A DNA stretch of 22,126 nt from a virus, in IMG/VR virus record IMGVR_UViG_3300031578_000379, positions 1 to 22,126 of that record, one strand, 5' to 3'. The notes below the pieces were generated by a model. The model worked only from the letters and a program-made list of their open reading frames with translations, had not been told where the DNA came from and made no database searches. Below, piece after piece: positions 1 to 21,900 of the stretch (positions within the stretch are counted from its first letter, which is position 1; each line of letters starts with the position of its first letter). The position numbers and the translations under genes are program-made.

Positions 1-1405
1 CCGGATACTGCCACGCATGCGTAACGCCTTCGACGTAGTAGGTCACGCCTTTGCCGTTCTTGCGCGCTTCGTGCAGCTTATGCCCGATGCGGATCTTCGG
101 CAGCAGGCGAGACGTCGTGAGCGTGCCTGACAATTCAAACGGCACCACCGCGTACCAGTCATACAGAAGCTCTAGCCACCGCGACACATGCACGATCCAA
201 TTCTGATCGTCCAGCAACGAGAAGTACCGAGTGCTCTGCGAGAAGCGACGAAAACCATGTTTCTTCATCGACGCTACGTCGTAAATCGGTACGCCGCCCG
301 GCACGCCTTGTGAGCGTGCCGCGCCCTGTTGAATCATAGACAGCACGTCCAAGCCCATGCCTGTGTTGCCCGCTGATTCCAGCAGCCAATAGTTGAACGT
401 GGATTCAGGCGCACCGAGACTCATGGTGCGCGAAAACACGTCTCCGGGTTTGATGTTGTGCGTTCGTATCTGCTCCCAACTTCGCTTGCCTTTGTCAGTG
501 CTTGGGAATGGACGTTCGCGCAGCGTGAGCGTGGCGCGTGGCGGATCCTCTAAAGAGAACGGTATGTCTTGATCGTCTGCGAGCGAGCAAAACATTTCGT
601 TCAGCACGCCGTTGTTATATTCCTCCAAGATGCCCCAGAGGTCGCGGAACATGAACTGATCGGGACTGTAGATCGCAGGGTCGTTGATCTGCCCGCGCGT
701 AGGCGCGTCAAACTCAAGATACAGAAGCGAGTGGAACGATCGCGCACCCAAACTTTTTGGCAACATCCACTGCGTCTCTGATAAGCCGCCATTGCCAAGC
801 CACGCATTGATCAGCGTCCGCACCACAACGTCTGCCGTTAGCCCAACGCCTTTGTTCATCTTCTGCGCGGCGCTCAAAACATCGTACATGGCAGTTAGGG
901 GCACCGCGCCGTTGCCCTCGTAAATGTTGATGTAGAACTGCGTATCCGTAAACACTTTCTGGAAGTCTCGCCCAGTGATCGTGTACGTGACGCTGCGCGC
1001 ACCAAGGTTGTCGCGCTTAAGATCCTCAGTGAACGTGTCGATCAACCCGAACAGCACGTCTGTTGGCTTGCCGCCTGTGAGCGTGACGATGCGCACCCAA
1101 ACGTCTTCAGGCTGCTCCCAAAGCGTTTCAAGCAAGTCCGTACCGACAATGGACGGCTTGACGGTCAGCGTCCATTGCCCTCCCGCCCCGAACGAAGTCG
1201 ACGTCTGAAAACCAACGATCCGAAACGGGCTCTTCTCGGCAGTGTTTGGCGTGTCGGATACAGCGCCGTCAAACCCTTGATCGGAGTGAAACGATGCGAA
1301 CACACGAGTGTGCGTGAAGCTGGCTTCGCCGTCGCGCGTACCTGAATCGAAGATGCCACCGGAGATAACGCTCAGTGCGCCACCTACAAGCGACGCGAGG
1401 CTCAC
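1..1405 (-). CDS. Baseplate hub-like protein (3' end outside window)
   Basis: A frame open from GTG at 1405 to the left edge, 468 visible codons without a stop. The GTG overlaps the tape-measure stop (GTGA). The protein starts MSLASLVGGALSVISGG; then PFRIVGFQTSTSF near 54-66 and WTLTVKPSIVG near 72-82 precede LFGLIDTFTEDLKRD near 116-130 and VTYTITGRDFQKVF near 136-149. Strand, 'G.ID', then 'TGRDF' is characteristic of gp27/gpD-like hub proteins that link the tube to the baseplate. Later parts (for example ILEEYNNGV, then IKPGDVF) are consistent with the large hubs of myoviruses. Place right after the tape measure supports this. The C-terminus is not visible. Confidence 0.75.
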   Translation of the reverse strand, partial: MSLASLVGGALSVISGGIFDSGTRDGEASFTHTRVFASFHSDQGFDGAVSDTPNTAEKSPFRIVGFQTSTSFGAGGQWTLTVKPSIVGTDLLETLWEQPEDVWVRIVTLTGGKPTDVLFGLIDTFTEDLKRDNLGARSVTYTITGRDFQKVFTDTQFYINIYEGNGAVPLTAMYDVLSAAQKMNKGVGLTADVVVRTLINAWLGNGGLSETQWMLPKSLGARSFHSLLYLEFDAPTRGQINDPAIYSPDQFMFRDLWGILEEYNNGVLNEMFCSLADDQDIPFSLEDPPRATLTLRERPFPSTDKGKRSWEQIRTHNIKPGDVFSRTMSLGAPESTFNYWLLESAGNTGMGLDVLSMIQQGAARSQGVPGGVPIYDVASMKKHGFRRFSQSTRYFSLLDDQNWIVHVSRWLELLYDWYAVVPFELSGTLTTSRLLPKIRIGHKLHEARKNGKGVTYYVEGVTHAWQYP

Positions 1406-3348
1406 GCCCCGACCCCAAGTTCGTACAGAGGACGCGTGCCACCGCGTTCAGGTAGGCGCATGACACCGTTGAACGCGCCCACGCCGCCGTAGGTAGGATC
1501 AGGGACGGACAAAGGCCCACCGCCTGTGCCGGGGGTTCCGCCTGGAACGGCTGGTCCTGTTGCTGCGCCTCTGAAGTTGAAAACTGTCATTACCTTGTCC
1601 AGCATTGCCTTAAAGTCTTCACCCATTAGCTTGAATACCGGACCCCATTCTATGCCAGACAGTGCTTCGCTAACCGCCTTCGCAACATCCGCTCCGATGT
1701 TAAGTAGCCCACTAAACATCGACTTTATGTCCGACCCGATCAAAGTGAGAACCGCTTCCGGCCCCTTTGTGAAGGCGTCGCCGTACTCGTTCACTTTCTT
1801 TGCGCCCGCGTCTGCGATAGGCGCTGCGTACTTCGCAGCTTTGATGCCGAGTGCAGTTTCTGTTTCCTTCACGGCAAACATATCACCGGCTACTTTGTAG
1901 CCCGCACTAACCTCCTTCTGTTCTATGCCCGCTTTGGTCGAAGCCCAACCAGGCTTGTACTTATTAAGCTCGCCGCCAACGTAATCGTATCCGGCTTCAG
2001 AATCGGGCTTCAACTTATCAGGCACAGTGCCTTGCGCCATCGACAGCGCTTCACGATCCGACAAGTCAGGCATCCATTGTTTGAATGCCATCGCGCGACC
2101 TTCGGCGGTGCCGCCGCGCGCGTTTACCTCCTTCATAATTTCCCCAAGGTACTTCTCGGGATTCTCTTGCAGGTCCATCGCTGCTTCGTACGGCGACTTG
2201 CCGCTCTTCATCGCTGTGTTCATCGCCAGTGCCGCCATGAAGCCTTGCTGCCCGCCAACACCGCGCAGCGTGTCCATCGCCGTCTTCGCCATGTGCTCGA
2301 CTGGCTCGCCCTGCATGCCAGTTACAGCGCCCATTATGCGCATCGCATTAGACATGCCTTCAGGGTCGATCTGCATGCCCTTCGTGCGAAGCTCCGTGAT
2401 GCCGCTCGCTATGCGATCCACCAAGTCGGGCAACTTCGACTTCCGCATGCCGGTGTCGAGCGCCACCGTGATCGCGGTAGTCAGCACGTTTTCGGATAGG
2501 GCAGCGCTGCCGCCTGCGGTTTCCATTGCGCCGAACAGCGGCGCGGACTTGATCCCGGTGGCTCGCTCAAGCAACGTCGATCGCATGATCTGATCCGGCA
2601 ACCGCGCATCGTCGCCACGCATGCCGGATTCGCGCGCGACGGATGCGGCCATGCCAACGGCTTCGCTTGGGCCGATACCAAGCCTGGCCATGCCCGGATA
2701 TTGCCCGCCGGTCATTCCGGTTTGTGCGAACACGCCCGCGCGTGCTGCGTCAATGGCTGCTGCTTTTTCTGCCAGCGAAGCCGCGTGATCGATCGCCGCG
2801 CCAAGCGCCTCCCCCACAAACGGGATCAGCCCGCGCGCGAGCCCAGACACCAGCCCACTGCCCGACGCGGCGGCAGTGCCCGCGTGCGCAGCCCGTTGGC
2901 CAACGAACGTACCAAGCGCGGTCGCGCCCGTGCGGTTCAGGAAACTTGGTTCCTTCTCCTGCTTACGCCCGTGCACGCGATCCATAGCGCGGTCTACCCG
3001 CCGCCCAAACCCGCCGCCCCCGCCGCCCCCGCCGCCACCAGGCGCTGTACCGCCCCCGCCGCCACCAGGCGCTGTACCGCCCCCGCCAGCGGGCGCTGTG
3101 CCTCCACCGCCCCCACCGTCGCCCCCACCGCCGCCAGCGGGCGCTGCGCCGCCAGTGCGCCCTTGCAGCTTGGCGATCCTCTCCAGTTCCATGCGAAGGC
3201 GCGTGGTCGTCTTCAGCAGCTTTTCCTGTGCCACCAATTGCGCACGCACGGACGCTGGGGCAAAGGCGCGGTCGAACGTCGCACGCAGCCCTTTGAGCGC
3301 GCGGTCGTCAACAGCGATCTCAAGGGTAGTGCGGTTCTTGTCAGTCAT
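1402..3348 (-). CDS. Tail tape measure protein (648 aa)
   Basis: Follows the chaperone pair, the fixed place of the tape measure. It fills the tube and sets its length; at roughly 0.15 nm per residue, 648 residues suggest a tail near 100 nm. The N-terminal 65 residues are helical with coiled-coil character (KLLKTTTRLRMELERIAKL near 43-61). A linker of almost pure Gly with TAP units spans 66-113. A hydrophobic segment with SGLARGLIPFVGEALGAAID lies near 168-187. The rest is helical and Ala/Met-rich to about 575, then a Gly/Pro-rich C-terminal tail. Short for a large myovirus. The ATG overlaps the chaperone extension's stop. Confidence 0.85.
   Translation of the reverse strand: MTDKNRTTLEIAVDDRALKGLRATFDRAFAPASVRAQLVAQEKLLKTTTRLRMELERIAKLQGRTGGAAPAGGGGGDGGGGGGTAPAGGGGTAPGGGGGGTAPGGGGGGGGGGFGRRVDRAMDRVHGRKQEKEPSFLNRTGATALGTFVGQRAAHAGTAAASGSGLVSGLARGLIPFVGEALGAAIDHAASLAEKAAAIDAARAGVFAQTGMTGGQYPGMARLGIGPSEAVGMAASVARESGMRGDDARLPDQIMRSTLLERATGIKSAPLFGAMETAGGSAALSENVLTTAITVALDTGMRKSKLPDLVDRIASGITELRTKGMQIDPEGMSNAMRIMGAVTGMQGEPVEHMAKTAMDTLRGVGGQQGFMAALAMNTAMKSGKSPYEAAMDLQENPEKYLGEIMKEVNARGGTAEGRAMAFKQWMPDLSDREALSMAQGTVPDKLKPDSEAGYDYVGGELNKYKPGWASTKAGIEQKEVSAGYKVAGDMFAVKETETALGIKAAKYAAPIADAGAKKVNEYGDAFTKGPEAVLTLIGSDIKSMFSGLLNIGADVAKAVSEALSGIEWGPVFKLMGEDFKAMLDKVMTVFNFRGAATGPAVPGGTPGTGGGPLSVPDPTYGGVGAFNGVMRLPERGGTRPLYELGVGA
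3034..3087. repeat. Two perfect 27-bp tandem copies in the tape-measure linker
   Basis: Positions 3034-3060 and 3061-3087 are identical, and degenerate versions continue to about 3150. The unit codes for nine residues, mostly Gly with one Thr-Ala-Pro. This is a minisatellite-type tract where linker length could change by slippage. Confidence 0.8.
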
Positions 3349-3741
3349 CAGACGATCCCGGCGAGAAAGCTCGCGTCAAAAGGTTCGCTTGATTCGTCTG
3401 TGGCCGCAAGCTCTACGGCGTCCCATTCAGGGTCGCCAGTCAGCAACGGCGTATCCGCGTTCGCAGCCGCTTCCGCACTGCGGTCCAACACACCGCCCGC
3501 GCCCGTTCGCTTTTCACTAGCAGCCGCCGCCACAAACGCGCGTTGCATTTCCGCTTGGCTGGCGCGAGTCGCCTGGAACAGCAGAACCTGTTCAGCTAGA
3601 TCGCGCGGTGAACTCTGCAAGAACCTCGGATCGTTCGACGGCAGGTTGAACGTCGCCATCCACGCCCCCGTCAGCATCAGAAGCGGGTCCGTTTTCATTC
3701 GCTCCATCAGTTGCGGAATCGTCTGGAGTGTATCCGAGAAA
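3348..3741 (-). CDS. Tail assembly chaperone, +1 frameshift extension
   Basis: The frame reached by a +1 shift (equivalently -2) runs from the overlap with the zero-frame chaperone to a stop at 3348, where the tape measure starts. It reads DTLQTIPQLMERMKTD, GAWMATFNLPSN and a helix DLAEQVLLFQATRAS, a convincing helical domain of the kind found in chaperone extensions such as lambda gpGT. There is no Shine-Dalgarno before any internal start, so ribosomes most likely enter from the zero frame. The given right border is the candidate TTT-C slip site; the real shift point could lie upstream (for example at GGG-A near 3760). Confidence 0.75.
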
Positions 3742-4131: not shown

Positions 4132-4184
4132 AACCAACTCCTATTCCACGAGTGCTAACGCACCGTCGCCATGACGGATACGAA

Positions 4185-4628: not shown

Positions 4629-4653
4629 GTCAGTTCTCCAATATCCGCTTCGG

Positions 4654-6936
4654 TTACGCTGCCGATGAAGTGGTCAACGGCGCAAGGTGGACTGTGATCG
4701 GGATGAAGTTGATCGGGTTCACCGTGGCAACCTCGATCGAGACGGGGAACACGTCGCCTATCTGGTCAACGGTCAACGCCCGGAAGGCAACGATGATCTC
4801 TTCTGCGACCATCGCCTCTGCCACACCAAGCGCCAACGACTTGATCGCACCCGCCGACTTGCCCAAGCCGCGCTGTCCGATCTTCAGTTCCAACGCCGTG
4901 CGGAACCGATACACGAACGTGATGAGTGATTCGTTAGACGACATTTCAGTGAACACCAAGTTGTCGTCTGCAAGGTGTGTCGTGATGGATCGCACCCACC
5001 GCACACCAACGCCGTCGACCTTTTCCAGCATCATTAGACCGCGATCGATCAACGCGCTGGCGTCGTTTTCGATCGTCCATGAAGCGTCTTGCCGAATGTC
5101 GCTCACCAAGATCGTCTTGCGCGTCAGAGGCTCCGCAATCTGCGCGCCAGCCTTCATGCCCGCCGCCATCGCAGCCAGCATGAACGGCGGATACCAAGTT
5201 GCAACGCCTTCGGCTGGCGAGAACTTCTGAATCTCTTGCGACACAGCGCAAACGTGGCGGCTGTTCAGAGCCTGTATCTGAGTCTGAATGTTCGCGCGAG
5301 TTTCGCCGCGACCAAGCGCAGTGCCAATGCCCACGATGCCGAACGCTTCAGACTTCAGGCGACCGTTTTTTGCGATCAAGTGCGTGAGCACGAGGTTGTG
5401 CACCGCAGGGTCTTCGGTCAACGGCACGATGATGTTGTACCGGCGCTTCTCTAGCAGAGCCAGCGCAGCAGCCCATTCGTTGATCGTCGTCACGCCCTCG
5501 CTACCGCCCGTCAAGTACACAGGCGCTACGGTGTTGGCAGGCGGCAACTTGCCACCAGTCGCACGCGCGAACTGGACGTACAGACTGACGCTGTTCAACA
5601 CAGGTGCCATCAGGTCCGCGTACAGATCCGCCACAACCGACAGTACGGATACTGCTGGGCGCGCAGCCGCCTGGTGATAGTCCAGATCGACCATCAGGAA
5701 CGTGGTCGGGTTGCTCACGTTGCCGTTTGAAGTGAAGCCCGCAAGCGCGTTCAGACGGTCAACCGCACGCTGCACTGTCGAGAACTCTGCGTGGAGCGTG
5801 ACGACAGCGTTGATCGCCACCGTCACCGTACGCGCACCAGGCACGTCGCCAAGCAACAGTGTAGTCAGTGCGCCGAACTGCGTTGCGCCCACAACAGGGA
5901 TTGCAGCCGCAGCAAGGTCGATCACTTGCGACACCGCAGTGCCCGCCGCGTTAGTGCCAAGCGCGACGAAGTGTGCCGCAGAGTTTACGTCTACGCTAAC
6001 GGTAGCCACACCCGATGCGGGCGTGTTCGTGGTGTCGAGCAAGCCACGCGTAAGCTGGCCGGGCGTGAGCACGAACAGCGACACCGTGACCGGATTGTCG
6101 CTGGCAGTCACCGTGCCGACGGCCACCGCCGACAAGCGCGCAGCAAGCACCTTGGCGAACACCACAGCGCCAACGACTACAACTACGCCGTTCAGAGACA
6201 GCACCTCAGACACGTACGCGTTGCCCGCCGTCAGCCCGTAGACCGTCAACGTCTGCGTCGTGTCGCCTGCGTTGCTGCTGGCCACTTGCACCACGCCGGG
6301 TGCGGGCATCGCTGCCGTGCGCTGCGCCACCAAGCCTGTCGCAGCCTTGGTAGCTGCGACAGTCAGCGCCGTGGCGGATACGGACGCCAGAGCCGTGCCG
6401 TAGCCCGCCGCTCCCGGCGCGTAGATGAGATCCATCACGGACACGCCGCCCACGTCGTCAAACACCTCGACATTATCTTCAAACACCACCGTGTACTTCT
6501 TGCCGACATTGCTGCCCGCCGCGACTTCGATGCTGATCTGATTCGTGAACAGCCCCCAGTCGCGGCTGGTGACGTCGAGCGCGTCCAGCACGTTGTCGTC
6601 AGCCAACGACACGCCCGCCTGCGTGGCAGGGTTGACCTTGACCAGTATCTCCGTCTGCGCGCCGCCAGGGATTGCCTGATCCGACGTGGGTTCAAAACCG
6701 AACAGCCCCGCCGTGCGCAAGTTGCCAGATCGGTATCTGTTCGACACCACGCCGGGGCGTGTCGCGTCTGCCAGCGATTCGTCCACAGTCAGCGGTGCAC
6801 CGCCCTCTGCGGTGCCCAGATAGGCCACGATGCCAGCCGCAGCCGGGCTCACCGATGCAAGCGCGCTCGCGTCGATCTTACTGACCGCTTGCGGGATGTT
6901 GAGTCGACGCCCATTGAAGAAAATTGCTGTAGCCAT
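4654..6936 (-). CDS. Contractile tail sheath protein with duplicated beta insert
   Basis: A 760-residue sheath subunit; hexamers stack around the tube and contract on infection. The N-terminal arm has QAVSKIDASALASV (16-29) and the SNRYRSG segment near 65-71. The C-terminal sheath core is clear near 619-735: WTIENDASALIDRGLM, RWVRSITTHL, TEMSSNESL, YRFRTALEL, then GVAEAMVAEEIIVAF. A DYHQAAARPAV segment follows the insert. Between about 185 and 385 there is an inserted beta-rich part with two similar repeats (near 229-276 and 323-374), probably surface domains. Start ATG has GAGG at 6 bases, 3 bases after the previous stop. Large size fits SPO1/A511-like sheaths. Confidence 0.93.
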   Translation of the reverse strand: MATAIFFNGRRLNIPQAVSKIDASALASVSPAAAGIVAYLGTAEGGAPLTVDESLADATRPGVVSNRYRSGNLRTAGLFGFEPTSDQAIPGGAQTEILVKVNPATQAGVSLADDNVLDALDVTSRDWGLFTNQISIEVAAGSNVGKKYTVVFEDNVEVFDDVGGVSVMDLIYAPGAAGYGTALASVSATALTVAATKAATGLVAQRTAAMPAPGVVQVASSNAGDTTQTLTVYGLTAGNAYVSEVLSLNGVVVVVGAVVFAKVLAARLSAVAVGTVTASDNPVTVSLFVLTPGQLTRGLLDTTNTPASGVATVSVDVNSAAHFVALGTNAAGTAVSQVIDLAAAAIPVVGATQFGALTTLLLGDVPGARTVTVAINAVVTLHAEFSTVQRAVDRLNALAGFTSNGNVSNPTTFLMVDLDYHQAAARPAVSVLSVVADLYADLMAPVLNSVSLYVQFARATGGKLPPANTVAPVYLTGGSEGVTTINEWAAALALLEKRRYNIIVPLTEDPAVHNLVLTHLIAKNGRLKSEAFGIVGIGTALGRGETRANIQTQIQALNSRHVCAVSQEIQKFSPAEGVATWYPPFMLAAMAAGMKAGAQIAEPLTRKTILVSDIRQDASWTIENDASALIDRGLMMLEKVDGVGVRWVRSITTHLADDNLVFTEMSSNESLITFVYRFRTALELKIGQRGLGKSAGAIKSLALGVAEAMVAEEIIVAFRALTVDQIGDVFPVSIEVATVNPINFIPITVHLAPLTTSSAA

Positions 6937-6939
6937 TGA

Positions 6940-7221
6940 TTACCTCGGTAACGCAAACCACACACGGTACAATTCGTCCCACGCACTCACGGACAACTTT
7001 TTGACACGCCCTGCACTGTGCCCGGCGACGAACGCCCGCACGATAGGGTTAGCAACACGCCCACGCCCCCATTGCCCGATCGTGACAAGGGACTCTTGCC
7101 GCACAGGCGTCTCTGCCATATCCGCGACCACGGCTGCTGCCGTGACGGGCGTCAATGCCTCTACGTCGACAGCACGGTCTGTGCTTGGCGTAGTGCTGCG
7201 TGTTCGTGTGTCAGCCATCAT
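6940..7221 (-). CDS. Small basic protein of unknown function before the sheath (93 aa)
   Basis: Not recognised. It starts at ATG 7221 or at the adjacent ATG 7218, 4 or 7 bases after GGAGG. The N-terminal half is Thr/Ala-rich and probably disordered; the C-terminal half is basic with a short QWGRGRV segment and a Trp-containing helix (WDELYRVWFAL near 81-91). No membrane segment. It overlaps the upstream stop by 4 bases and ends 3 bases before the sheath start, so it is translated with the tail genes. An N-terminal disordered region plus small folded tail would suit a minor neck or tail protein. Confidence 0.6.
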   Translation of the reverse strand: MMADTRTRSTTPSTDRAVDVEALTPVTAAAVVADMAETPVRQESLVTIGQWGRGRVANPIVRAFVAGHSAGRVKKLSVSAWDELYRVWFALPR

Positions 7222-8009
7222 TCGTCCTCCGCGTTGAAGATCCTACCACGCAGTGCCCCACGAACACCACCCACCGCAATGTCTTCTGCGAAAAGACCGC
7301 CGATGCGGACGCGTGCCGGATCCACAGCCAGGACATTCGGTACAGACATGAGCGACTTCAGCGTTACACCCAAACGCCGCGTGAACATCGTCTCAGGCAG
7401 ATACGTTTCTTGCGGGTTCAGATCGGATCCGTCGTAACGCGGATCGAGGATCCCGTACTCCGTCAGCGTGTGCAACGAACCAATCAAAATCGCCTTGGCT
7501 AGTTGATACATATACAGGCACACGTCCGGGTGTTCCGCGAACACGTAAATGCCGATCGTCTGCTCAAACATGCTGCCTACGTATTCCTTCGCAACAGCGT
7601 CTGGCTCATGCGGCGTCGTTTCGCCCAAGTAGTCCGCAAGCGCATCGTCGCTCTGCTTATCCGACTCCAGCACGACGGCGTAGCATGGGAAGTCGCTGCT
7701 CGACCTAGCGTATCCGAGTTTCGTGGATGGTGGTGAACGCTGAAACGACGTGACGTAGCTCTCGCGTTCTGCTTCGCCCACCATAGGATCGAAAAAGTGC
7801 GAAAAGAATCCTCGCAGCAGGCGCACGTTTTCTGGCGCGGCGAGACGGTCCACCTCTGTGCGCAGCAGCGAGATCAACACACGTTCCGGCATCACTACGC
7901 TGTAGCGACCGGGCGCAGTCGTGTACGTGCGATCGGGTGAGCCAGGCGGTTGCAGCGCCTCGCTTACGATGGTCCCAAAGTTTGCCGGTGACTTGCGGTT
8001 CGCTGTCAC
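7218..8009 (-). CDS. Tail-terminator-like neck protein
   Basis: A 263-residue protein in the position of the tail terminator, which caps the tube and sheath once full length is reached. The visible core includes a helix with LISLLRTEVDRLA near 46-58, a strand PCYAVVLESD near 108-117, YVFAEHPDVCLYMYQLAKAILIGSL near 154-178, and a C-terminal beta part from about 205. GTG start with GGAG at 5 bases. It is the last larger gene before the sheath; assignment rests mainly on order and general alpha/beta layout, so medium confidence. Confidence 0.6.
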   Translation of the reverse strand: MTANRKSPANFGTIVSEALQPPGSPDRTYTTAPGRYSVVMPERVLISLLRTEVDRLAAPENVRLLRGFFSHFFDPMVGEAERESYVTSFQRSPPSTKLGYARSSSDFPCYAVVLESDKQSDDALADYLGETTPHEPDAVAKEYVGSMFEQTIGIYVFAEHPDVCLYMYQLAKAILIGSLHTLTEYGILDPRYDGSDLNPQETYLPETMFTRRLGVTLKSLMSVPNVLAVDPARVRIGGLFAEDIAVGGVRGALRGRIFNAEDE

Positions 8010-8794
8010 TAGGACTCCACCGTGCTCTTGAGAATGAACCCCGCGATCTTCTTGACGTGCTTGCGCGTCGCGCCTGCAAAGTCATGCCGCTTGATCCCCG
8101 GATGAAACCAGTGCTCGGGATGTTTGGTGTGCTCAGTGATCACGCGGAACGTCGAATACGAAGACTGCGTAGCTTTTTTGTACGTCTTCTGTTTTCGGAT
8201 CATCCCCGTGTAGATGCTTGTGGCGTGCCACGGCTTCTTTAGCGTTTGCAACTCTGTGCGCGCAGACGCATTCGCGTGCGGGCTGTTCGCGGTCAAGCGC
8301 TCGCCCCACCGCGTCGTTGCGCCAGTGCGCGCAGCACGCGCGGGGCGCGACAGCGTAGGCGCGAGCTTCTTGGCAGCCGAGTAAATATCCGTGGGCATTG
8401 TGTTGCCTACGTTTTCACCACCCGTGCCGGGCGTGCCGTGGCGAAACGGAACGATCAGATACTTCCCATTCTTGCCCTGCTTCGCCTTCGGGCCATTCAA
8501 CATCCACCCACGCATGTTGCCGCCCTTGAAACCCTGTTCGATAAGGTTTGGCAGCACGCCGTCAAGATGGATCCGCACAACGCCAAGACCCTCTTCCATC
8601 GACAGCTTGTCGATGTAGTCGCGTGCCGTCGAACGCAATTCCTTTTTCGCTTGCGACTTCCAGTAACCCATTGCGCTTGCGGCCAGCCCCTTCAGGATGT
8701 TCTTGCCGATACCTGCTGGTGGTAACGAAGCAAGCAACTCTGCCGCCGCACGCGGAAGGTTTGGCTTCGTGATGAATGTAGTCGCGCGTGGCAT
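8009..8794 (-). CDS. HK97 gp10-like neck / tail-completion protein
   Basis: A 261-residue protein that probably lies at the head-tail interface and helps finish the tail. An N-terminal helical part (SQAKKELRSTARDYIDKL near 47-64) leads to NLIEQGFKGGNMRGWML near 82-98, YLIVPFRHG near 111-119, and a C-terminal FRVITE strand with WFHPGIKRHDF near 228-238. The 'FR.ITE ... W.HPG' ending is typical of HK97-gp10-like proteins. The ATG shares one base with the preceding stop, and the stop shares a base with the next GTG. Family assigned from memory of these motifs; place between the head-closure-like and tail-terminator-like genes agrees. Confidence 0.72.
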   Translation of the reverse strand: MPRATTFITKPNLPRAAAELLASLPPAGIGKNILKGLAASAMGYWKSQAKKELRSTARDYIDKLSMEEGLGVVRIHLDGVLPNLIEQGFKGGNMRGWMLNGPKAKQGKNGKYLIVPFRHGTPGTGGENVGNTMPTDIYSAAKKLAPTLSRPARAARTGATTRWGERLTANSPHANASARTELQTLKKPWHATSIYTGMIRKQKTYKKATQSSYSTFRVITEHTKHPEHWFHPGIKRHDFAGATRKHVKKIAGFILKSTVES

Positions 8795-9705
8795 TACACC
8801 GCACCCGTCACAGGCAAGATACGTTCAGTCTGCGCAAGGAAGTCCAACTGCGCCGAACACTGCAACGGTAGTCCTACCGCGTCCACCGTGTCAGCGGCTA
8901 CTAAATCAGAGCGCTGCGCGTGCGGGTGCGAAGTCACAACCCAGGCTGGATGAAAGTCATAATGGACGGATACCAACTGCCCGTCGCACACCAATCGTTC
9001 GCCAGCAGCAAGCCACACAATGTGCCCTTGTGCGTTCAGGGTCATGTGATAGCCAACCTCCAACGGCAACACTTGGCCGGTTGGATCAAGGTACAGAGCC
9101 TTGGTTAGCTTCGCTATCCGGTAGCGCGCTGAATCAGTCATGGCAGGCAGCGCGGCCCGCCGACCGCGACGATTGCCCTTCTTCAACAGTTCGTTGAAGT
9201 TCATCAGGTCGTCTACCATTTCGATGCTGTCCCGCCACGCGAGACGATATGCCTGCTGCGTGGTGACAGCGACTTCGCCGCTAGTCCACAAACCGAATTT
9301 CTCGTACAGCCGCGTGGATTTTGAGAACGCGGCCATGTGCGCCTGGATCTCCAGAGGGTCCGTGTAAAAGTAACCGGATCCATCACATGCCGCGCACGCT
9401 GGGTTCGCTTGATCTGTTGACTCTTGCTGACACGGGCAGAGCATCGCCTTGCGCCACACCACACGCTTACCGTGCGCCAGCAAGAGTCGGTCAAACTCGA
9501 CTGTCCGAAAGTTTGTACGCAGGCGTCCAGCCCCAAGCGATTCGTTGTAATCCGCTAGAGGGTCAACGTCACCAGCGGTGCCGTCGATCTGATTGCGGGT
9601 AATACGCTGCGGTTGGCGAGGCACGTTTGGATCAGCAGTACGCGCGGCCACGTTAGGCGGCGGCGGTCTGTATCCGGCACCAAGTTTGTTGACGGGCTCT
9701 GTCAC
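8794..9705 (-). CDS. Zinc-binding neck / head-closure-like protein
   Basis: A 303-residue virion protein with one clear zinc knuckle: CPC at 90-92 and CAACDGSGYFY at 104-114, so C90, C92, C104 and C107 are the likely ligands. This CPC...CxxCDGSG pattern is common in structural proteins encoded just downstream of the adaptor in large myoviruses. The first 50 residues are Pro/Arg-rich and probably disordered; beta-rich segments follow (about 115-150 and 205-265). The GTG start overlaps the adaptor stop (GTGA), and the stop shares one base with the next ATG. Head-closure role is inferred from order, adaptor then this then a gp10-like protein. Confidence 0.7.
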   Translation of the reverse strand: MTEPVNKLGAGYRPPPPNVAARTADPNVPRQPQRITRNQIDGTAGDVDPLADYNESLGAGRLRTNFRTVEFDRLLLAHGKRVVWRKAMLCPCQQESTDQANPACAACDGSGYFYTDPLEIQAHMAAFSKSTRLYEKFGLWTSGEVAVTTQQAYRLAWRDSIEMVDDLMNFNELLKKGNRRGRRAALPAMTDSARYRIAKLTKALYLDPTGQVLPLEVGYHMTLNAQGHIVWLAAGERLVCDGQLVSVHYDFHPAWVVTSHPHAQRSDLVAADTVDAVGLPLQCSAQLDFLAQTERILPVTGAV

Positions 9706-13591: not shown

Positions 13592-14527
13592 TCAGTGGTA
13601 GGCGCGAGCAACAGCGCTCTCGCTTGGGTTCTTGGCGTGGAAGTCTTCGACGGCTTGCAGCACGGCGGGCGCGCATACGTTGCCGCCCTCCAGCAAGCCG
13701 ATGGCTTCGACGGTGCGTTGACCTTCGATATGCCGAATCCCCTTTTCGAGATTCATGTAGGACATGGTGGAGAGGATCTCAGACTTGCTGAGTTTGGCAC
13801 CACCACCGCGACCGGCTTCGCCGGGCATCGACTTGTGCAGCGCTGCTGCGCCGGTCACGCCGCGCGGCGCGTTGGGGGTGCGCTCCACAAGGTTCAGACG
13901 CGTCCCAAGCGCCTGCACCACAGCAGCGTTGCTCTTCAGCAGACTGCCCATTTGGTGCAACGCGCCTGCGAGTGCGCGGTTGACCGTCGCCTGCGAGCCG
14001 AAGCCCTTGCGCAACGAACCGTTCACCTTGTCGATCTGATCCGCAGTGCGCGCGGTGAACGATTCAAGGTATGCGCTGACGTCGATGGTATCCGCCAAGT
14101 CGGAGTCCGATCGGTACTCGTCCATCGACTTGCGCAGCGTGCGCTCCGACGCGGACTTCTTGGCCTTGCCGCGCATGCGACCACGCATGCCGCCCGACAT
14201 TTCGCCGTCGCCGTCGTTGTCGTCGTCTTCGCCCTCTTCGTCGCCGTCAGGCTCTTCGTGATCCGCGAAGCCCAGCAGGCCGTCATTCATGGCACTGATC
14301 TGACTCGCGCTGAATCCGAGATCAGCGAGCTTGCCGATCATCAGGCGATCCAGAGCAACGTCACCCGGATACGAGCCGCGACCGCCGCCCTTCTTGCCGT
14401 CTTCATCAGTCGTACCAGAGTGCTCCACGCCGTTGCTGTCGCCCTTGATCAAGTCCACTGCGTCAGCAGCCTTGATCAGATCCTCAAGCGCAGAGTTCAA
14501 ACCGTCCACGGTCACGTCGTTGTTCAT
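13592..14527 (-). CDS. Candidate capsid scaffold / head assembly protein
   Basis: A 311-residue protein between protease and major capsid protein, the usual place of a scaffold. Residues 90-108 are almost all acidic or glycine; 112-124 are basic and Gly/Met-rich (MRGRMRGK); about 125-215 look helical; and a conserved-looking C-terminal block (PRGV near 221, LSKSEIL near 246-252, then helices) follows. Such charged, helical, low-complexity proteins fit a scaffold that the protease cleaves away, but the role is inferred from place and composition. The ATG at 14527 has a good AGAAAGG site at 8 bases; the frame is open to 14755, but that part overlaps the protease gene and reads as shadow sequence. 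It ends 41 bases before the capsid gene. Confidence 0.75.
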   Translation of the reverse strand: MNNDVTVDGLNSALEDLIKAADAVDLIKGDSNGVEHSGTTDEDGKKGGGRGSYPGDVALDRLMIGKLADLGFSASQISAMNDGLLGFADHEEPDGDEEGEDDDNDGDGEMSGGMRGRMRGKAKKSASERTLRKSMDEYRSDSDLADTIDVSAYLESFTARTADQIDKVNGSLRKGFGSQATVNRALAGALHQMGSLLKSNAAVVQALGTRLNLVERTPNAPRGVTGAAALHKSMPGEAGRGGGAKLSKSEILSTMSYMNLEKGIRHIEGQRTVEAIGLLEGGNVCAPAVLQAVEDFHAKNPSESAVARAYH

Positions 14528-14540: not shown

Positions 14541-15278
14541 CTACAGTTCAGTCGCGGGGTAATGTTTCGCTGCATATCCGACCACGCGTTCTGCGAGTCG
14601 TACGGAAAGTTTCGGGTGGACCATGCGGAGAAAATGCACGGCTGCGCTCTTGCGCATTTTGCGCTGCTTGCGCTTCTTGGGCATGCGCGGCCCAGCGTTC
14701 GCAATGCCCTCCAGCGCCTCTGGCTCCAGCGCCGCTGCGCTGCCTGCCTCGCCACTGGGCGTGCCTACCGACAGGCTCTTCGCCAGCACGTCCAGCGACG
14801 TCTGCGTGTTGACCGGGCAACGCGTGATTGCGACTTCGCGGACCACTGCCTTGCGAACCTTGCTCGGGTCGCGTGGGTCACGCTCGATAATGCCGCCCTC
14901 TACCGAGAAGCCGAGTCGACGCCCACTGCCGCCCTTCGCCAGACCCTCTGCAATGCCCCACAGCTTGTCGGCCCGTGGGTTGCTACCTTCCGGCAGTAGC
15001 TCGCCCTCTACGTACCAGCCCGCGTGCCCGTCCGCGAGTGTGTCGAGTCGCGCCGCAGTCGGATACCCGACAAGCGAGTCAGAATCGCCAGAGTGATTGT
15101 CGTTGAACCAACCCTTTGCGAGAAAGTGACTGAAGTCCAAACCCTTTTGGATCAGTGTCTCGCCTTGGCGATCCATGTGATCGGTCGAAACGTATCCGCC
15201 GATGAAACGGCCAGACCGTCCATCGATCTTGGACTTCGACAGCGCGTCACACTCAATCTCGAAAGCGAAGTTGGGCAT
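14541..15278 (-). CDS. Prohead (capsid maturation) serine protease
   Basis: A 245-residue protein of the Caudovirus prohead protease family (HK97/S78 type), which trims scaffold and capsid protein inside the immature head. The core is visible: RFIGGYVST near 24-32, DRQGE at 36-40, the likely catalytic His62 in WFNDNHS, the likely catalytic Ser125 in RLGFSVEG, and the closing strand VREVAITRCPVN near 146-156. A very basic stretch, KKRKQRKMRK, lies near 201-210 in the C-terminal tail. The frame is open back to an ATG at 15359, but that start would translate through the hairpin and add 27 unusual residues, so I chose the ATG at 15278, directly after the U-tract. It is first in the capsid module, 13 bases before the next gene. 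Family call is firm; start is moderate. Confidence 0.88.
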   Translation of the reverse strand: MPNFAFEIECDALSKSKIDGRSGRFIGGYVSTDHMDRQGETLIQKGLDFSHFLAKGWFNDNHSGDSDSLVGYPTAARLDTLADGHAGWYVEGELLPEGSNPRADKLWGIAEGLAKGGSGRRLGFSVEGGIIERDPRDPSKVRKAVVREVAITRCPVNTQTSLDVLAKSLSVGTPSGEAGSAAALEPEALEGIANAGPRMPKKRKQRKMRKSAAVHFLRMVHPKLSVRLAERVVGYAAKHYPATEL

Positions 15279-15324: not shown

Positions 15325-15357
15325 TCTCTCTGCAACGCAGAACGGACCAGCAACGCC

Positions 15358-15387: not shown

Positions 15388-15393
15388 GTGCGC
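15376..15393. repeat. Perfect inverted repeat over the candidate -35 box
   Basis: Arms GCGCACT and AGTGCGC, 7 bases each and perfectly paired, flank a 4-base centre. The repeat covers the candidate TTGACA box, so it could be an operator for a dimeric repressor or a small RNA hairpin if transcribed from upstream. No second copy was seen in the gap. Confidence 0.45.
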
Positions 15394-15418
15394 GTATCGC
15401 AATAGGCGAGAGTCGCGG

Positions 15419-15634
15419 CTACGTCCGCTCACGAATGACCAAACGCGGCGGCGCGGCCTTGCGAAGCGCAGTGGCAGTCATGCTGCCGATGATCACGCCG
15501 CGCTTGCAGCGCGCACAGTTGATCTCCACGTCGCCGCCCTTGTGCAACACCACAATGCGCGTTGCGAGCTTGACCTTATCCGAGTTGGCAACGACGTGGC
15601 CAATCGACGCTTGGCAGTGTGGGCACGTTGGCAT
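15419..15634 (-). CDS. Com-like zinc-ribbon protein (71 aa)
   Basis: A 71-residue protein with CPHC at 4-7 and CARC at 40-43, the usual two knuckles of a zinc ribbon. The second half (VEINC, ARCKRGVII) resembles the phage Mu Com family, where an IEIRCPRCKRHII-type segment ends the zinc site. Mu Com is a small RNA-binding zinc protein that allows translation of the mom DNA-modification gene. The knuckles here are farther apart than in Mu Com, and no mom-like gene is in the window, so the same job cannot be assumed. The start lies 2 bases after the upstream stop and its Shine-Dalgarno is weak. It is the last gene before the regulatory gap at 15279-15418. Confidence 0.7.
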   Translation of the reverse strand: MPTCPHCQASIGHVVANSDKVKLATRIVVLHKGGDVEINCARCKRGVIIGSMTATALRKAAPPRLVIRERT

Positions 15635-15636
15635 GC

Positions 15637-15930
15637 TCAGACTTCAGGCAACACGACACCCAGCACTTGCCCGTAGTGCATCACGTCGTGCGGCATGGGC
15701 ACGTCGTGCGTGATGCACGCGCGTATCGTGCACAGCCACATGCGCTTGATCTCTGCTTGGCTGTGCTTCTTAACCAGTTCGATCTGATTCACGCCGTCAG
15801 TCAGAAACTCCAACGCCTTGCGCGCAACGTGCGCGTTGGGCTGATCGCAGAAATATCCGACGTCCAGCTTCGTGCCGGGCTCCATGTAGTTCGTGCCCAG
15901 CGCGTCCAAAACATCCGTCGTCCTGCTCAT
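15637..15930 (-). CDS. Small protein of unknown function (97 aa)
   Basis: I do not recognise this 97-residue protein. The ATG follows a strong GGAGGG Shine-Dalgarno at about 6 bases, and that site lies inside the last codons of the giant helicase gene. The start overlaps the upstream stop by 4 bases, so translation is probably coupled. The protein looks soluble and mixed alpha/beta, with three cysteines that form no clear zinc site, and no signal peptide or membrane segment. Coupling to the helicase gene suggests it is made with it, possibly as a partner, but nothing in the sequence proves this. Confidence 0.75.
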   Translation of the reverse strand: MSRTTDVLDALGTNYMEPGTKLDVGYFCDQPNAHVARKALEFLTDGVNQIELVKKHSQAEIKRMWLCTIRACITHDVPMPHDVMHYGQVLGVVLPEV

Positions 15931-18900
15931 CGCATCCCTCCAACGTGAACCACGAACCGCCTCGCGTATCGCGCCGACTTGGCAACCAGTTCTTGCGCGT
16001 AGTGCACCGATTCATCCAGCATGCGATCCGCAAGCGGATCATCGTTTTTATTCAGCGTGGACGTTGTGCGTGCGCTGGCAACGCTCGCAGCCACGAAGTC
16101 ATAATCCGTTGTCTCGGGCTGCGCGTTCTGCGCGATGTTCAGGAACGCTTCGACGGCAGTCATTTTCGCACGGCTCTGCATCAGTTGCGAACGCTCTGCA
16201 TTGCACGGCGATTCCATACTGTACTCGCCCGTCTGCACGGTCACTTTCTTGCCCTTCTTTTTGCCTGCCACCGGGATCGTGATCTCTTCTGTAATGGGGA
16301 TATCGACTGAGGTAGTGAAGCGCTTCACTTCAACCAAGAAGCGGCGGTCCTGCATCATCTTTCGCTCAAACGGCGAGAGGTGCTGCTGAATGATAGTGTT
16401 CACCACGTCGCTCTGTTGCACCGCTTCAGGTGGGATATACATGCGTTTGAGTTGCTGAAGGATGCGATTCCTAGTGGCACCATCGCCCGCCGCAGCAATC
16501 GCTTTCAAGCGTTCGCGCTCTTCCGGGTCGCCCCAGTAGCCGTGCGCTTTCAGATCAGCAAGCGTCGACTCTTGCAGACCCTGTATCCGCTCAAGTGAGC
16601 GCTTCGCAAAGTACGCCTCGATCAGTTGGTCCGGTGCGCCTTCGCCAAGTTCATCTAACTTCTTGCGGTCGCCTGGGTCCAACGTGTCGAGTGCATCGTT
16701 GATCGCGGCAAGCGCCGTCGTGTGATCGTAGTCCTTGATCGACGCGCCTTTTTTCTCTTCGTTGGCGCGAATGATTGCGTCGATCTTGTCTACGATCGGC
16801 TTGGCTTCACGCGACGTCGCAGCGGGCAACATGCGCGCGGCGCGCGTGATGCGCTGCCACTCATCTAGCGGCGAGAAAAGAGAGTCGTACATCGCCAAGT
16901 GCGCAGCGGGCCAATTCAAACCTACGTTCGCTGCATCCGACGCGCACATGAATTGCGTGTTGTTGAACACGTACTGCTGTTTATCCGACAGCGGCACAGT
17001 AGCCACCCAATACGGCTTCAGCAGACCGCGCAGTTCCGATTCATGGCCTTTCATCGTCGTGCCGCTAGAGGTGCGGATAAGGCGCTCCAAGTCCTTCACA
17101 CGTTTGCTAGTCTTCGCATCCAACGCGCTTTCGTAAACGTAGTTGGGCACCACAGTACCCTTCGGGCCAGCAACGCCCATAACACGCATGGGCACCTCCA
17201 ACTCAAACGACTCTTTTTTACCCTTCGCCTTGTCGTGCTTGAGATCCAACACAACGTCCGTGCGGAACGCTGCCGCAATGTTCTTGCGTTCGCTGCGGCC
17301 CCACCCCTCGGCAATGACACCAAGTCCAGGCGGCTTGCCGGTGGTGCCGTACAGCGTGCGGTGCACGAACATGCTCACGCCAGTGTCCTTGCCGAACTTG
17401 TCCTGCTTGTGCCGGAAGATTTCGCTGTTCAGGTTGCGCTCACCCAGCGTCGCGCCCTTGCCCATGTACGTCACAAAGTATTTTTTCGGCGTTTGCTTGC
17501 GGTCGCCTTCGCCGGATACGTCCGCGTTGCCCAGCGCTTCGTTGACGTCTTGGAAACCCATTTGCCGCAGCTTGGCTTCCATCGTGCGCATGGATGAACC
17601 AATGCGGTTGCCGAACAGAATGAACTGCGTGTCGTTGCCGCCAGCGCCCGTGTGCTTCGCCAAGTTGTTCTTGATCCAACCTTCCAACGCATCCGTCTTC
17701 GCGTTGTTATGCGTGACCACTGCGTCGTACTGCGCTCGCTCGTGCCTACGCTCAAGACCACGTTGGATCGTGTGCTTTTCGTGACCGACCTTGGGTGCTT
17801 GATTACGAACGCCCTTGCCCTCATCCCACAGCTTAGGCTTCTTGCGTTCCTCGCCAGTATCCGGGTTCCAAATCCTGTCGTTGTCTTCCGGGTGCTCAGT
17901 CCAACCGGCAGCCTTCAATTGCTTGACTGTTTTCTTGTCGTCGCTGTCGCCAACGTCTTCGCCCTCTTCGCCAGACGTGTCCATGCGCCCGGTGTGATCC
18001 CAGTCAGACGACGCATAGAACATGCCCTTGGCTTTGGCTGTCGAGTCGCGCACGAACAGCGTGCCGTTGGGAACAACGCCAATGTGTTCGTGCCCATGCT
18101 CGTCTGTGAACTTGTATGGGATCGGTTCGATCACGCCGCCAGTTTCCGCCTGCGTGCCGCGCGCGATCATGCCCTCGGGACCGTAGTCCTGATTCAGAAC
18201 CTTATCCGTCCACTTCTGCCCAGTCACTGTGGTGTACGTGCGCTCCTTGATCTGCTTCAGAATCATTGGGTCGATCTTCGTGCCTGCAAGTGTCGAGTAG
18301 TCTACGCCAAACAAACGCTCAGAGTATTTTTGCAGCGCCTCAAAATATCCGCCGTGGATTTTCTCGTCAGCCACGTCCTGAATAGACGGCCACTTGCCGT
18401 TCCACCCAGTTTTCTTGTCCATGATTTCTTCATAGCTGGGCAACTTGAATGTGCGCGGCACTGTGGTGATCGTCACCTCACCGCGCTTATTCGTGAGCGC
18501 AACGGACGCGTCGTATTGCAATTCCTCGCTTGCGTCTGGGGCTTTGTACGCCGCGCAGTTCGCGATGCCACGCGCGCGTGCAACAGACGCCTTCGCCTCT
18601 TCGCTCAGTAGCTCTGTTTCATCCAACCCAAGGCTCGCGCTCGATTCAAGCGAGGTGCGATCCTCGTCTGACATTTGCGCCATCGCAGCGCGGTACATCA
18701 CCGCCTGCATGCCGGTCATGTGCGCGGGCTGGTTTTCGTCCAGCAACACCGCTGGCATGTTCTGGCCTTTGACGTCCGTGGTGTTTTTCACGTCGAAGTA
18801 TTGAAACAGATAGCGTGCCAGCTTGCCCGCACGCATCGGATTCAAATCCAACTTGCGCGGATTCTTCACGCCCAACGCACGCTGCGTTGCACTCGCGACC

Positions 18901-21900
18901 AGATACTCGTTTTCAAACTGATCTTCGGTGCCGAGATCAACAGCGCCCGCCGTGATCAGACGCAGCAAGCGAGGCACCGTGTGCAGCGTGTTATTGACCG
19001 GCGTGCCTGTCATAGCCAGGAACAGCTTCATGTGCGGGTTCCACCGCTCGACAGCTTTAGATACTTCGTTGTCGTTGGCGATCTTGTGCGCTTCGTCAAC
19101 CACCATGCCGTCGAACAGACCCGTCGCGAGCAACGCTTCAGAGTGATCTCTGAAATACTCGTACGGGCAAACCAGTTCGTTGTTTGTGTCGTTGAACGGA
19201 TCCCACATACCAGGACGCTTCTCTATTTGATCCTTCCAATGCTGAATCACTTTCTTGCGGAACGCCTCGTCAGTGTCCTTTGCACCGCGCGGCGGCAGCT
19301 TGGGTAGCTGCTGTGCGCCTGCAAGCGTCGCTGCGCCTGCAAGCGTAGGAACGTATCCGGCCCGTTGCTTGAATTCTTGAAACCAGTTCTCGGCAGTGTT
19401 CAGCGGCACTACAATGATCGTTTTCTTCGACGTGCGGTTGGGGTGCGGTGCTCCGTTGCCGTCCACCAAGTTGCGCATCATTGCGGACGCCATGATCGCA
19501 AGACCCGTCTTGCCTGTACCCATGAAGTGCGCAGCCATCATGCGCCCGCCGTTGTTTGCCAGTTTCTGCAAGGCTGTTATCCGGTGCTCGCCCGGCTGGA
19601 ACCCGTCGTCGTCTGCGCGCATGCCGCGCAGCAGCCCGTCTGGGTTGATGTTGCCGTTAGGCTGGATGAAGTCCTCCGTCTTCGCGATGTTCTTGCGCCC
19701 GACTTGCTCGGACACACTGCGTTCAGCGACCATCGCGATATCGAGCATCGCCCGCACGCGATCCTCCATCATAAATCCGCCAAGTGCTTTTCGCAGTGCC
19801 GGTAGGTCGGATATGTTGATCCCGATCGGCGCGTCGTCTGCGTCCTGATCAGGATCGAGCGCGGGCTCGTACACGCCCTCCATTTGGAGGATGCGGTCAC
19901 GCGTCATAGATCCGTCTTTAGGCAGCTTGATCCTGATTACGCCCGACCCTTCCTCGATAGCCGACCCTGTGACCACTTCGTCTGCGTACAGAAGTACGTG
20001 GCTCTGCAACGGCTCCACAAACCTACGCCGCACGTCCTTTTTGCCAGTCGCCGGAATGATGCCAGCTTCGCGCGGCGTCACTGCGTCAACGCGCAGCAGC
20101 ACTTGTTTGATGCCCGCGCCTTGCCCTGCTTCGGGCATCACAGTCCAACCGTCCTTCGCTCGCTTGATCACGCGAGCAAGTATCCGCTTGTCGCTGCCGG
20201 GGTAAAGAATCCACCCGATCACACCGGGTTTGATCGGCACTTTCTTTTTTGCTTCGCCGCGACGATCGATCACACGCGGCAAACGGATCTCGTTATTCGC
20301 GTCGAGCAGTTCGTCAATGCGGATACTGGACTTGCCCAGTTGCCTTGCCCAGTAGTCGCCAACGACTTTCGGCGGTCCCTTGCCGTCCCACTCGACTTCG
20401 ATATGCGCCAGACCGCGTTCCGCGCCTTGCTCTGCCTTGCCTGAAATAGACACCCATGTGCGGCGGGGCTCAGTGGCTTCTGCCGCCTTGCGCATCAGGT
20501 CAATCAAGTCGCCTGCGTTTTGAATGTCTACGCGCCCGCCTGGATTCAGCAGCGACGCCAACACAGGGTCCATGATCTGCCCACGCCCGTAGCGATGGTT
20601 CTCGGCAAGGATCGACGCGCCAGTGCAGCCGCCGATCTGCTTCGCCAACTTGTGCGGGTCAGTCGGCATATCCTCCGTCAACACGGTCCAACGCCAGTTG
20701 CCGTTGCCATCCGGCAACTTAATTTTGTCGCCAGTCGCAAACGCGTTCGACGCGTTCACCCAAATTTTGGTCCACGTTCCATCAGGGTTGCGTTGCTCGT
20801 ACAACTTCGCCGTCAGCACGGGCTCATGCTTCCCCGTGACCGGATCATAGAACGTCTGCGCCATGCTCTTGCCGTCGACAGTCTCGCGCGCCTGCATCGT
20901 CTGTCGTTCAGGCGGCGCTAGTCGGATACCGTTGAATTTGAACGTGCCCGACTTCGCCATAAACTCTTCGGGCGAAATTTCGACAGGCGTCCATTCGTGG
21001 CGCTCTTGGATCGCATCCTCGCCCTTCGCGTGCAGCTTCGCCACGCGTCTGCGCTCAAACTCTAACGTGCCTGGTATCTTCGCGCGCCCTTCCGGCGTGA
21101 GGTGCAAGCCAGCAGCCATTTGCTCATCAGTCGCGTTGCCGAGATTGCCGCCTAGCGCATTGAAAATCTTGCGCCCAAGGTTCGTTTTTCCGCCCTCCCA
21201 GAGTTTGCCTTTTTTGTCGTACAGCTTCGTGTACGCAGCAATCGGATCGTCGCCCAACTCCGCGACGAACTTCTCGATCTTCGCGTCGCCCTGTCCGAGA
21301 AACAGAGTCGCCTGATCGGAGTCCAGCAGGTTGCCTTTTTCGTCGTAGATTTCCTTCATGTACTCGCGCGATCGAAACTTATTGAAGAGGCTGCCCTCGT
21401 AACGAGGCAACTGCGTCACTGGGTCGATCGTCGCGGGCATGCGGTCCCAGCCAGCCTCTTCGTCCTTGCTGGCAGGCCCAACACGCATCATCACCGTGCG
21501 ACCGTTGACGGTCATTGTGTAGAACTGATCTTTGTCGCTGTAGTATTGGCCCGCTGTAGATGCAGGTGATTCGTGCCTCGCACGATGCAGCAGCTTCGAC
21601 ACGGGCGTGACGGGCGCAGCGTTCCACCAGCGCAACTCTTCGTCCGGTGTCGCCAGCATTTCGGCCAACGGGCGCAACTCATGCAGCACGTTCTCGCGCA
21701 TCCACTCGTAATGCTCGGGCGCGACCATCGCAAGTTCCTTCGGGTGCGTGTGCGCGCACGCAAAGGTTTCTGCGAAGTCCTCTTCGTATTTACTGTCTGG
21801 GCCACTTTTGGGATTGCCGACTTGCGCGTAGTTCGACACGAACTTCTGTTCCGTATCCCGCATGCGTTTCCAGTCGTCCCACAGACCAGGCTGCTGAGTC

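Follow-up and report, generated by a model that had tools for sequence, protein, structure and literature searches.

An over-represented and evenly spaced word, CGGATAY, in an uncultured phage genome, with other words in related clades: a possible mark on double-stranded DNA

The window analysed here is an entire virus record of 22,126 bases (IMG/VR record IMGVR_UViG_3300031578_000379), whose coding strand, as read from the list of open reading frames (ORFs), is the minus strand, which holds all of the main ORFs. Matches to the PHROGs database identify a head maturation protease, a major head protein (phrog_752, E 1.5e-87), a tail sheath and further structural proteins. Because megablast of the window against phage records gave no match at the DNA level, and because the 636 matches of the head protein to phage records all have less than 60% identity (the top-ranked, at about 33%, being those of Bacillus phages of the SPO1 type), the virus is classed, on sequence grounds, as an uncultured and distantly SPO1-like myovirus; a scan of viral contigs with the same head protein yielded relatives at 57 loci. 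The subject of this work is a short word, the hexamer CGGATA (TATCCG on the opposite strand), which is repeated throughout this genome, within and between its genes.

The window contains 50 copies of the word, 28 on the minus strand and 22 on the plus strand, spanning positions 2-20928 (Table 1). The expected count is 5.24 when dinucleotides are shuffled (standard deviation 2.46, maximum 12 in 100 shuffles), 5.1 under a first-order Markov model and 11.4 under a third-order model. Shuffling of synonymous codons in 18 ORFs gives an expected count of 7.7 (standard deviation 2.6, maximum 15 in 300 shuffles), to be compared with the 47 copies counted in these ORFs, a coding total in which the site at 14575 is counted twice because it lies in two overlapping ORFs. 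CGGATA is the top hexamer both by the third-order Markov model and by the codon shuffle, the runners-up in the latter being GGATAC (28 against 8.0 expected), which overlaps CGGATA itself, and then CAGCAG (42 against 17.0); the possibility that many hexamers are equally enriched is ruled out by these rankings. In the sense orientation, CGGATA occurs 4, 11 and 10 times in frames 0, 1 and 2, and TATCCG 7, 9 and 5 times, so that all six classes of orientation and frame are occupied, and four copies lie outside the 18 ORFs (three of them intergenic and one, copy 7, inside a further ORF). The signal is thus real, strong and carried at the level of the DNA, an effect of codon usage or composition being ruled out by the codon shuffle, the Markov models and the use of all frames and both orientations. 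An explanation by composition, codon usage or an assembly artefact, which might appeal to the presence of all copies but three inside ORFs, is hardly credible, since it is refuted not only by these results but also by the even spacing described below and by the recurrence of the word in distinct IMG/VR contigs, which derive from different metagenomes.

A sequence-only reading of the window had counted about 49 copies by hand, in both orientations and over the same range, and had taken the over-representation to be a genome-wide signal in the DNA rather than a codon effect. The present count and backgrounds bear this out, and the core of that reading is supported by the codon shuffle, the hexamer ranking and the behaviour of a diverged relative (below). 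The codon frames that it assigned near 1987, 2493, 2695 and 9115 are correct, as are its two intergenic copies (copies 9 and 10 in Table 1), to which copy 36 is now added as a third, and its remark that the next base is mostly C or T agrees with 41 of the 50 copies.

The base that follows the word in the window is C in 29 copies, T in 12, A in 6 and G in 3. The same preference (C 66, T 32, A 13, G 9) is found at 120 sites in two close relatives, the near-identical record G001 and the part of record G003 that lies outside the window (here called outer G003), a combined set of about 50 kb (L027, L028, L030) that takes in nearly all of the window. Within 30 bases of these 120 sites, the only positions beyond the next base which differ from background are -3 (A in 40 of 120) and, weakly, +9, and the words AGGATAC, TGGATAC and CTGATAC are absent from the same 50 kb, where 1.7, 2.4 and 2.9 copies would be expected. 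The motif is therefore CGGATAY, an asymmetric core of 7 bp with nearly flat flanks.

The copies are also evenly spaced, a property which had not been part of the earlier reading and is added here. The gaps between copies of CGGATA in the window have a mean of 427 bases, a maximum of 1,008 and a coefficient of variation (CV) of 0.53, and not one of 5,000 random placements (mean CV 0.97) was as even. This evenness is not a general property of hexamers, because CGGATA has the lowest gap CV among the 194 hexamers of the window that occur 25-90 times, for which the median CV is 0.98. Even spacing recurs in relatives: G001, a record overlapping the window, has 86 copies in 37.7 kb; outer G003 has 34 in its 12.6 kb (P 0.002); and G002, a diverged relative, has 22 in 8.9 kb. 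When the sites on the plus strand are slid against those on the minus strand, a CV as low as the observed value is reached in 0.25% of trials for the window, 0.55% for G001 and 2.7% for G002; since sliding one strand against the other loses the evenness, the sites on the two strands are coordinated, and the spacing constraint is probably indifferent to which strand carries the word.

The relation between the strands bears on three further explanations. In the first, the word would be a long recognition site at which a phage primase begins the fragments of the lagging strand. The length of Okazaki fragments is not far from the spacing of the sites, which occur on both strands, and a DNA polymerase A and a DnaB-like helicase are encoded by the genome of a related clade itself (clade D, below). 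Primase sites act on each strand separately, however, so that coordination across strands is not expected; the primase sites known so far have a length of about three bases, and a palindromic word such as that of clade D, GAWTC, would be unusual for a primase. We regard this explanation as very improbable. In the second, the word would act like Chi, turning a host exonuclease of the RecBCD/AddAB type away from the phage DNA. Chi is usually a short asymmetric word that acts in one orientation, and the word studied here is likewise short and asymmetric, while each strand of the window is even when taken alone (P 0.025 and 0.026). Lambdoid phages without an inhibitor of RecBCD are enriched for Chi, according to PMC3784561, and Chi is in this respect, like CGGATAY, an asymmetric word enriched in phage genomes, but the enrichment described there has a median of 2.3-fold, at about 0.2/kb in Rec- phages and concentrated between the origin and the packaging site, compared with 4- to 10-fold and 2.3/kb here. 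Action in one orientation further predicts that the strands are independent, whereas the coordination has P values of 0.0025 in the window, 0.0055 in G001 and 0.027 in G002, the word of clade D is palindromic, and the phage of that clade has its own homologues of SbcC/SbcD and RuvC. A Chi-like role is accordingly improbable, if less so than a role in priming; both are weakened by the strand-shift test, though permutation of the strand labels (below) does not settle the question.

In the third, the word would mark site-specific nicks in virion DNA of the kind found in T5, phiKMV and tf, a suggestion which the sequence-only reading had listed beside modification and protein binding. The known nick motifs are also short words which are common to a group of phages and occur in coding and non-coding DNA. 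In the cases described they nevertheless lie on one strand only, with 14 copies in tf and 13 in Rembedalsseter, and their spread in the Rembedalsseter group is uneven (PMC3517423, PMC11780129), while the window has 22 and 28 sites on its two strands, or one in about 440 bases. A nick at a word present on both strands every few hundred bases would leave the virion DNA in short strands, and a palindromic word like that of clade D would tend toward double-strand breaks. Nicking is thus disfavoured and, in our estimate, slightly less credible even than priming; modification and protein binding stand as the candidates.

A comparison with G002, which has 86% nucleotide identity to the window over the aligned part, indicates what is conserved. 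In this part G002 has 22 sites and the window 23, of which 15 are common to both; the window has 8 that G002 lacks, and G002 has 7 that the window lacks. The copy number is kept while the positions turn over. The conservation of window sites, 15/23 or 65%, is only modestly above the 47% found for all hexamers (rank 32 among the 146 hexamers with at least 12 copies), so that position is not the thing that is kept. The sites present only in G002 fall in the gaps between shared sites more often than under random placement (P 0.028), the result for sites present only in the window is marginal (P 0.060), and a test of whether gained sites lie near lost sites was not significant (P 0.28). Selection seems to act on the density of the word and not on its individual sites.

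Related phages carry other words. In a survey of 24 records of the family, CGGATA is both enriched and evenly spaced in three records which with the window form clade A (G001, outer G003 and G002). In clade B the word is GGATAC, with the fuller form CGGATACC/GGATACC, which is 3.7-fold enriched in G004 (72 copies against 20 expected, CV below the Poisson value with P 0.002) and 3.1-fold in G018, and even in both. In clade C it is CGATAA, enriched 4.1-fold in G006 (126 against 31 expected), 4.0-fold in G005, which is a near copy of G006, and 3.6-fold in G426; its spacing is even in G006 (P 0.005) and G005 (P 0.030) and not significantly so in G426 (P 0.115). In clade D it is GAWTC, enriched 3.2-fold in G420 (423 against 130 expected), 3.3-fold in G427 and 2.8-fold in G428, and even in all three (P <1/1500, 0.002 and 0.023), and GASTC is not enriched in that clade. 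GGATG is tentatively assigned to clade E, where it is evenly spaced but only 1.1-fold enriched in G422 and 1.3-fold in G429, a near copy of G422. In the remaining 11 of the 24 records, none of the five words is both enriched and even. Every clade word has GAT on one strand, and GAWTC alone is palindromic.

The word labels fit a tree of the capsid protein (32 rows), on which they require 6 changes, where the minimum is 5 and the mean for shuffled labels is 11.7 (none of 200 shuffles was as low), and each word forms one group except that of clade B, which is broken by L050, a short sequence labelled as having no word which contains 8 copies of GGATAC in 5.1 kb. The nearest sister of clade A on this tree (L018, L019 and L047; support 91/90) has CGGATA at 0.79/kb, compared with 2.26/kb in the window.

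Three further enriched words were seen among the relatives. In G008 (L037-L040), GGATAA occurs 51 times against 7.8 expected, together with other GGATA words; it was dropped as a clade word because it is strand-biased (34:17) and unevenly spaced, and may be another kind of signal, or a relic, in the sister clade. AGGATAA/TTATCCT, of which L003, L007, L010 and L060 each have 8 or 9 copies where fewer than 1 would be expected, is clustered (CV above 1), and may be a promoter or another local element. The short contig L020 has 11 copies of GATATC in 4.5 kb against 0.6 expected, which is possibly another clade word.

Cyanobacterial HIP sequences (HIP1, GCGATCGC, and words that take its place, among them GGCGCC) are the known kind closest to these words, one short word being likewise hugely over-represented throughout a genome. 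HIP sequences are thought to be kept by selection (PMC6604393), and some relatives carry another word together with a putative methyltransferase that is able to methylate it, according to PMC4390886, in which the word "phage" has 0 occurrences; the replacement of one word by another in related genomes is found here as well. HIP sequences are, however, palindromes of cellular chromosomes at about 0.9/kb in Synechocystis 6803 (PMC6604393), whereas the words described here belong to a virus, have densities of roughly 1.4-4.4/kb and are mostly asymmetric; CGGATAY itself is asymmetric, so that the palindromic feature of HIP-like sequences is absent from it.

The word might also be imposed by the host, in that a phage would follow a host chromosome rich in CGGATAY (for example, one with a HIP-like word), and clades would differ as their hosts differ. 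HIP1 does occur once per 1131 bp in the chromosome of Synechocystis 6803, as given in PMC6604393, and because the G+C content of the records varies from 0.52 to 0.68, their hosts probably differ. Against this, CGGATAC has a far lower density than in the window in all of 398 genomes of one phylum, Pseudomonadota (the phylum of G017), the highest count read being 450 in about 1.9 Mb, or about 0.24/kb with genome sizes rounded, compared with 1.31/kb in the window. A scan of a genome collection gave a single locus, L047, a contig of a gammaproteobacterial metagenome-assembled genome, which is possibly a phage assigned to the wrong bin; the phage on it has CGGATA at only 0.79/kb. Enrichment in the host chromosome, a feature of Chi sites too, was likewise not seen in the 398 genomes of this one phylum. 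A host-imposed word is on this evidence unlikely, though somewhat less so than a Chi-like site.

An explanation must account together for the enrichment, its independence of codons, the even spacing with its coordination of strands in clade A, the turnover of sites and the clade-specific words. This combination suggests an action on double-stranded DNA in either orientation which requires one site within about 1 kb of nearly any point. We propose that CGGATAY would be the recognition word of a protein that acts on the double-stranded DNA of the phage, and that the lineage would keep the word by selection on density rather than position, such that nearly every 0.4-1 kb has at least one copy, while related clades would keep GGATAC(C), CGATAA, GAWTC and perhaps GGATG in a comparable manner. 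The acting protein may be a sequence-specific adenine DNA methyltransferase, borne by the phage or by its host, which would mark the genome as is supposed for the HIP sequences. A clade-specific mark on double-stranded DNA made by such a methyltransferase is the most likely reading, ahead of a binding protein, and we assign it a rough probability of 0.4. The form of the words fits methylation, because one strand of each contains GAT and because GAWTC is a palindrome, a usual form of methyltransferase site. N6_N4_Mtase genes are present in 7 of 28 records, four of which carry a word and belong to clades A (G003), C (G426) and D (G420, with the gene at contig bases 13210-14235, and G427), the other three (G009, G010 and G430) being without one. 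The best NCBIfam relative of the G420 and G003 enzymes is CcrM, which recognises GANTC, and the best chain in a search of the PDB with the G420 enzyme is also CcrM; since the NCBIfam scores (71 and 60 bits) are far below the cut-off of 830, the specificity of these enzymes cannot be read off from the match. The use of such a mark could be self-recognition, the choice of strand in repair or the organisation of the DNA.

Several observations weigh against the methylation reading. Methylation by itself leaves selection for even spacing unexplained. Of the 7 records without a word in which the DNA polymerase region is present, 3 also have a methyltransferase (two in G009, one each in G010 and G430; none in G011, G012, G014 and G431), for which reason a link between methyltransferase and word is not claimed. 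The gene in G003 lies at the end of its contig and is cut off by it; CGGATA (0-10 copies each) does not rank in the top three words by enrichment in any of 18 further phage contigs that encode relatives of the G003 enzyme; and no methyltransferase was found in the partial sequence covered for clades B and E. The assignment of words is also open to criticism, in that those of clades B-E were picked by scanning, largely on the data on which they are tested, so that their P values are optimistic, with G426, G427 and G428 (which were in the enrichment scan and outside the spacing scan) serving as partial checks, and in that G426 was placed in clade C solely on its word and its G+C content. The coordination of strands, finally, is not seen throughout. 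The strand-shift test is not significant in outer G003 (P 0.089), nor in G004 (0.18), G018 (0.08), G005 (0.49) or, for CGATAA, G006 (0.10; 0.017 for GATAA); the evenness of each strand of the window by itself points in the same direction; and permutation of the strand labels fails to separate spacing within each strand from joint spacing (P 0.29 in the window, 0.30 in G001, 0.087 in G003 and 0.052 in G002).

The same properties could be produced by a non-modifying protein, a nucleoid or genome-organising protein of phage or host that coats or bridges the DNA at intervals and whose word evolves together with it. Binding is consistent with the clade-specific words, with the evenness and strand coordination of the sites in clade A and with a 7-bp core that is asymmetric and has flanks close to background, and the Cluster A mycobacteriophages offer a parallel in their stoperators, sites repeated across the phage whose consensus, according to PMC6550527, drifts between related phages along with the repressor that binds them. 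Stoperators, as described there, are nonetheless bound by an immunity repressor, number up to 30 per genome and mostly follow the direction of transcription, whereas the sites of the window are divided 28:22 between the strands. A comparison of gene content between word-bearing and word-less records, made on incomplete contigs, gave no candidate for a partner protein, its hits being mostly ORFs that resemble antisense artefacts. Binding without modification is hence the less favoured of the two candidates and on balance unlikely, although it ranks above a host-imposed word. Chi, nicks and stoperators each fail at least one of the tested features.

The methylation reading may be extended, more doubtfully, to a marking system of the whole family, in which each clade would have its own word at a regulated density and a clade-specific enzyme that modifies or binds it. 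Such a system would be a viral self-label that is switchable in evolution, a mostly asymmetric counterpart of HIP, used for example to discriminate phage DNA from host DNA or to direct repair. The titles and opening lines of abstracts returned by a literature search contained no description of an evenly spaced, clade-switching word in phages. Iterated words of the HIP1 type, whose function is not settled, are found in large cellular genomes. Phages with small genomes, and with words that differ between related clades, would allow word, spacing and enzyme to be compared and tested directly in a compact setting. Any proposed function is strongly constrained by the even spacing, since the reader of the word seems to need a copy near almost every point of the DNA, and if the word is a modification site, a viral self-label would be readable from sequence alone.

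Table 1. Positions of the 50 copies of CGGATA in the window, with the strand that carries the word.
Feature	Position	Strand	Location
CGGATA copy 1	2..7	+	
CGGATA copy 2	943..948	-	
CGGATA copy 3	1255..1260	+	
CGGATA copy 4	1988..1993	-	
CGGATA copy 5	2493..2498	+	
CGGATA copy 6	2695..2700	+	
CGGATA copy 7	3452..3457	-	in overlapping ORF 3348-4037
CGGATA copy 8	3731..3736	-	
CGGATA copy 9	4175..4180	+	intergenic
CGGATA copy 10	4642..4647	-	intergenic
CGGATA copy 11	5188..5193	+	
CGGATA copy 12	5646..5651	+	
CGGATA copy 13	6375..6380	+	
CGGATA copy 14	7119..7124	-	
CGGATA copy 15	7658..7663	-	
CGGATA copy 16	7711..7716	-	
CGGATA copy 17	8386..8391	-	
CGGATA copy 18	8967..8972	+	
CGGATA copy 19	9115..9120	-	
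CGGATA copy 20	9671..9676	-	
CGGATA copy 21	10167..10172	+	
CGGATA copy 22	10666..10671	-	
CGGATA copy 23	10987..10992	+	
CGGATA copy 24	11116..11121	-	
CGGATA copy 25	11267..11272	+	
CGGATA copy 26	12025..12030	+	
CGGATA copy 27	12347..12352	-	
CGGATA copy 28	12898..12903	+	
CGGATA copy 29	13120..13125	+	
CGGATA copy 30	13501..13506	-	
CGGATA copy 31	14089..14094	-	
CGGATA copy 32	14366..14371	+	
CGGATA copy 33	14575..14580	-	
CGGATA copy 34	15060..15065	+	
CGGATA copy 35	15193..15198	-	
CGGATA copy 36	15577..15582	-	intergenic
CGGATA copy 37	15854..15859	-	
CGGATA copy 38	16584..16589	-	
CGGATA copy 39	16982..16987	-	
CGGATA copy 40	17074..17079	+	
CGGATA copy 41	17513..17518	+	
CGGATA copy 42	17858..17863	-	
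CGGATA copy 43	18203..18208	-	
CGGATA copy 44	18346..18351	-	
CGGATA copy 45	19354..19359	-	
CGGATA copy 46	19578..19583	-	
CGGATA copy 47	19808..19813	+	
CGGATA copy 48	20181..20186	-	
CGGATA copy 49	20320..20325	+	
CGGATA copy 50	20923..20928	+	

Other words are conspicuous by their rarity in G001 and outer G003. The palindromic hexamers GCCGGC (0 against 38 expected), CACGTG (0 against 32.5), CCGCGG (0 against 32.5) and CTGCAG (0 against 25.6) are absent, and the asymmetric hexamers CAGCTC (0 against 26.1), GATGAC (1 against 31.6) and CAGATG (1 against 34.2) are absent or nearly so, a pattern that would be expected of the avoidance of several restriction or BREX-like systems.

Among the structural genes of the window, an ORF of 2,065 residues on the minus strand (15927-22124) contains an SNF2 helicase domain (E 6.6e-14) and, close to its start, a HEIGH motif like that of metalloproteases; we take it to resemble the polyvalent proteins carried in virions. 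An ORF of 2,211 residues occupies a comparable location in G420 (L124:11487-18119). Between the giant ORF of the window and the protease lies an ORF of 97 residues (15637-15930, minus strand) which has homologues in G005, G006 and G422, and an ORF of comparable size adjoins the giant ORF of G420 (L124:18124-18426). Directly upstream of the long ORF 1402-3348, two further ORFs on the minus strand, 3592-4137 and 3348-4037, overlap in different frames and look like a putative frameshifted gene for a tail-assembly chaperone.

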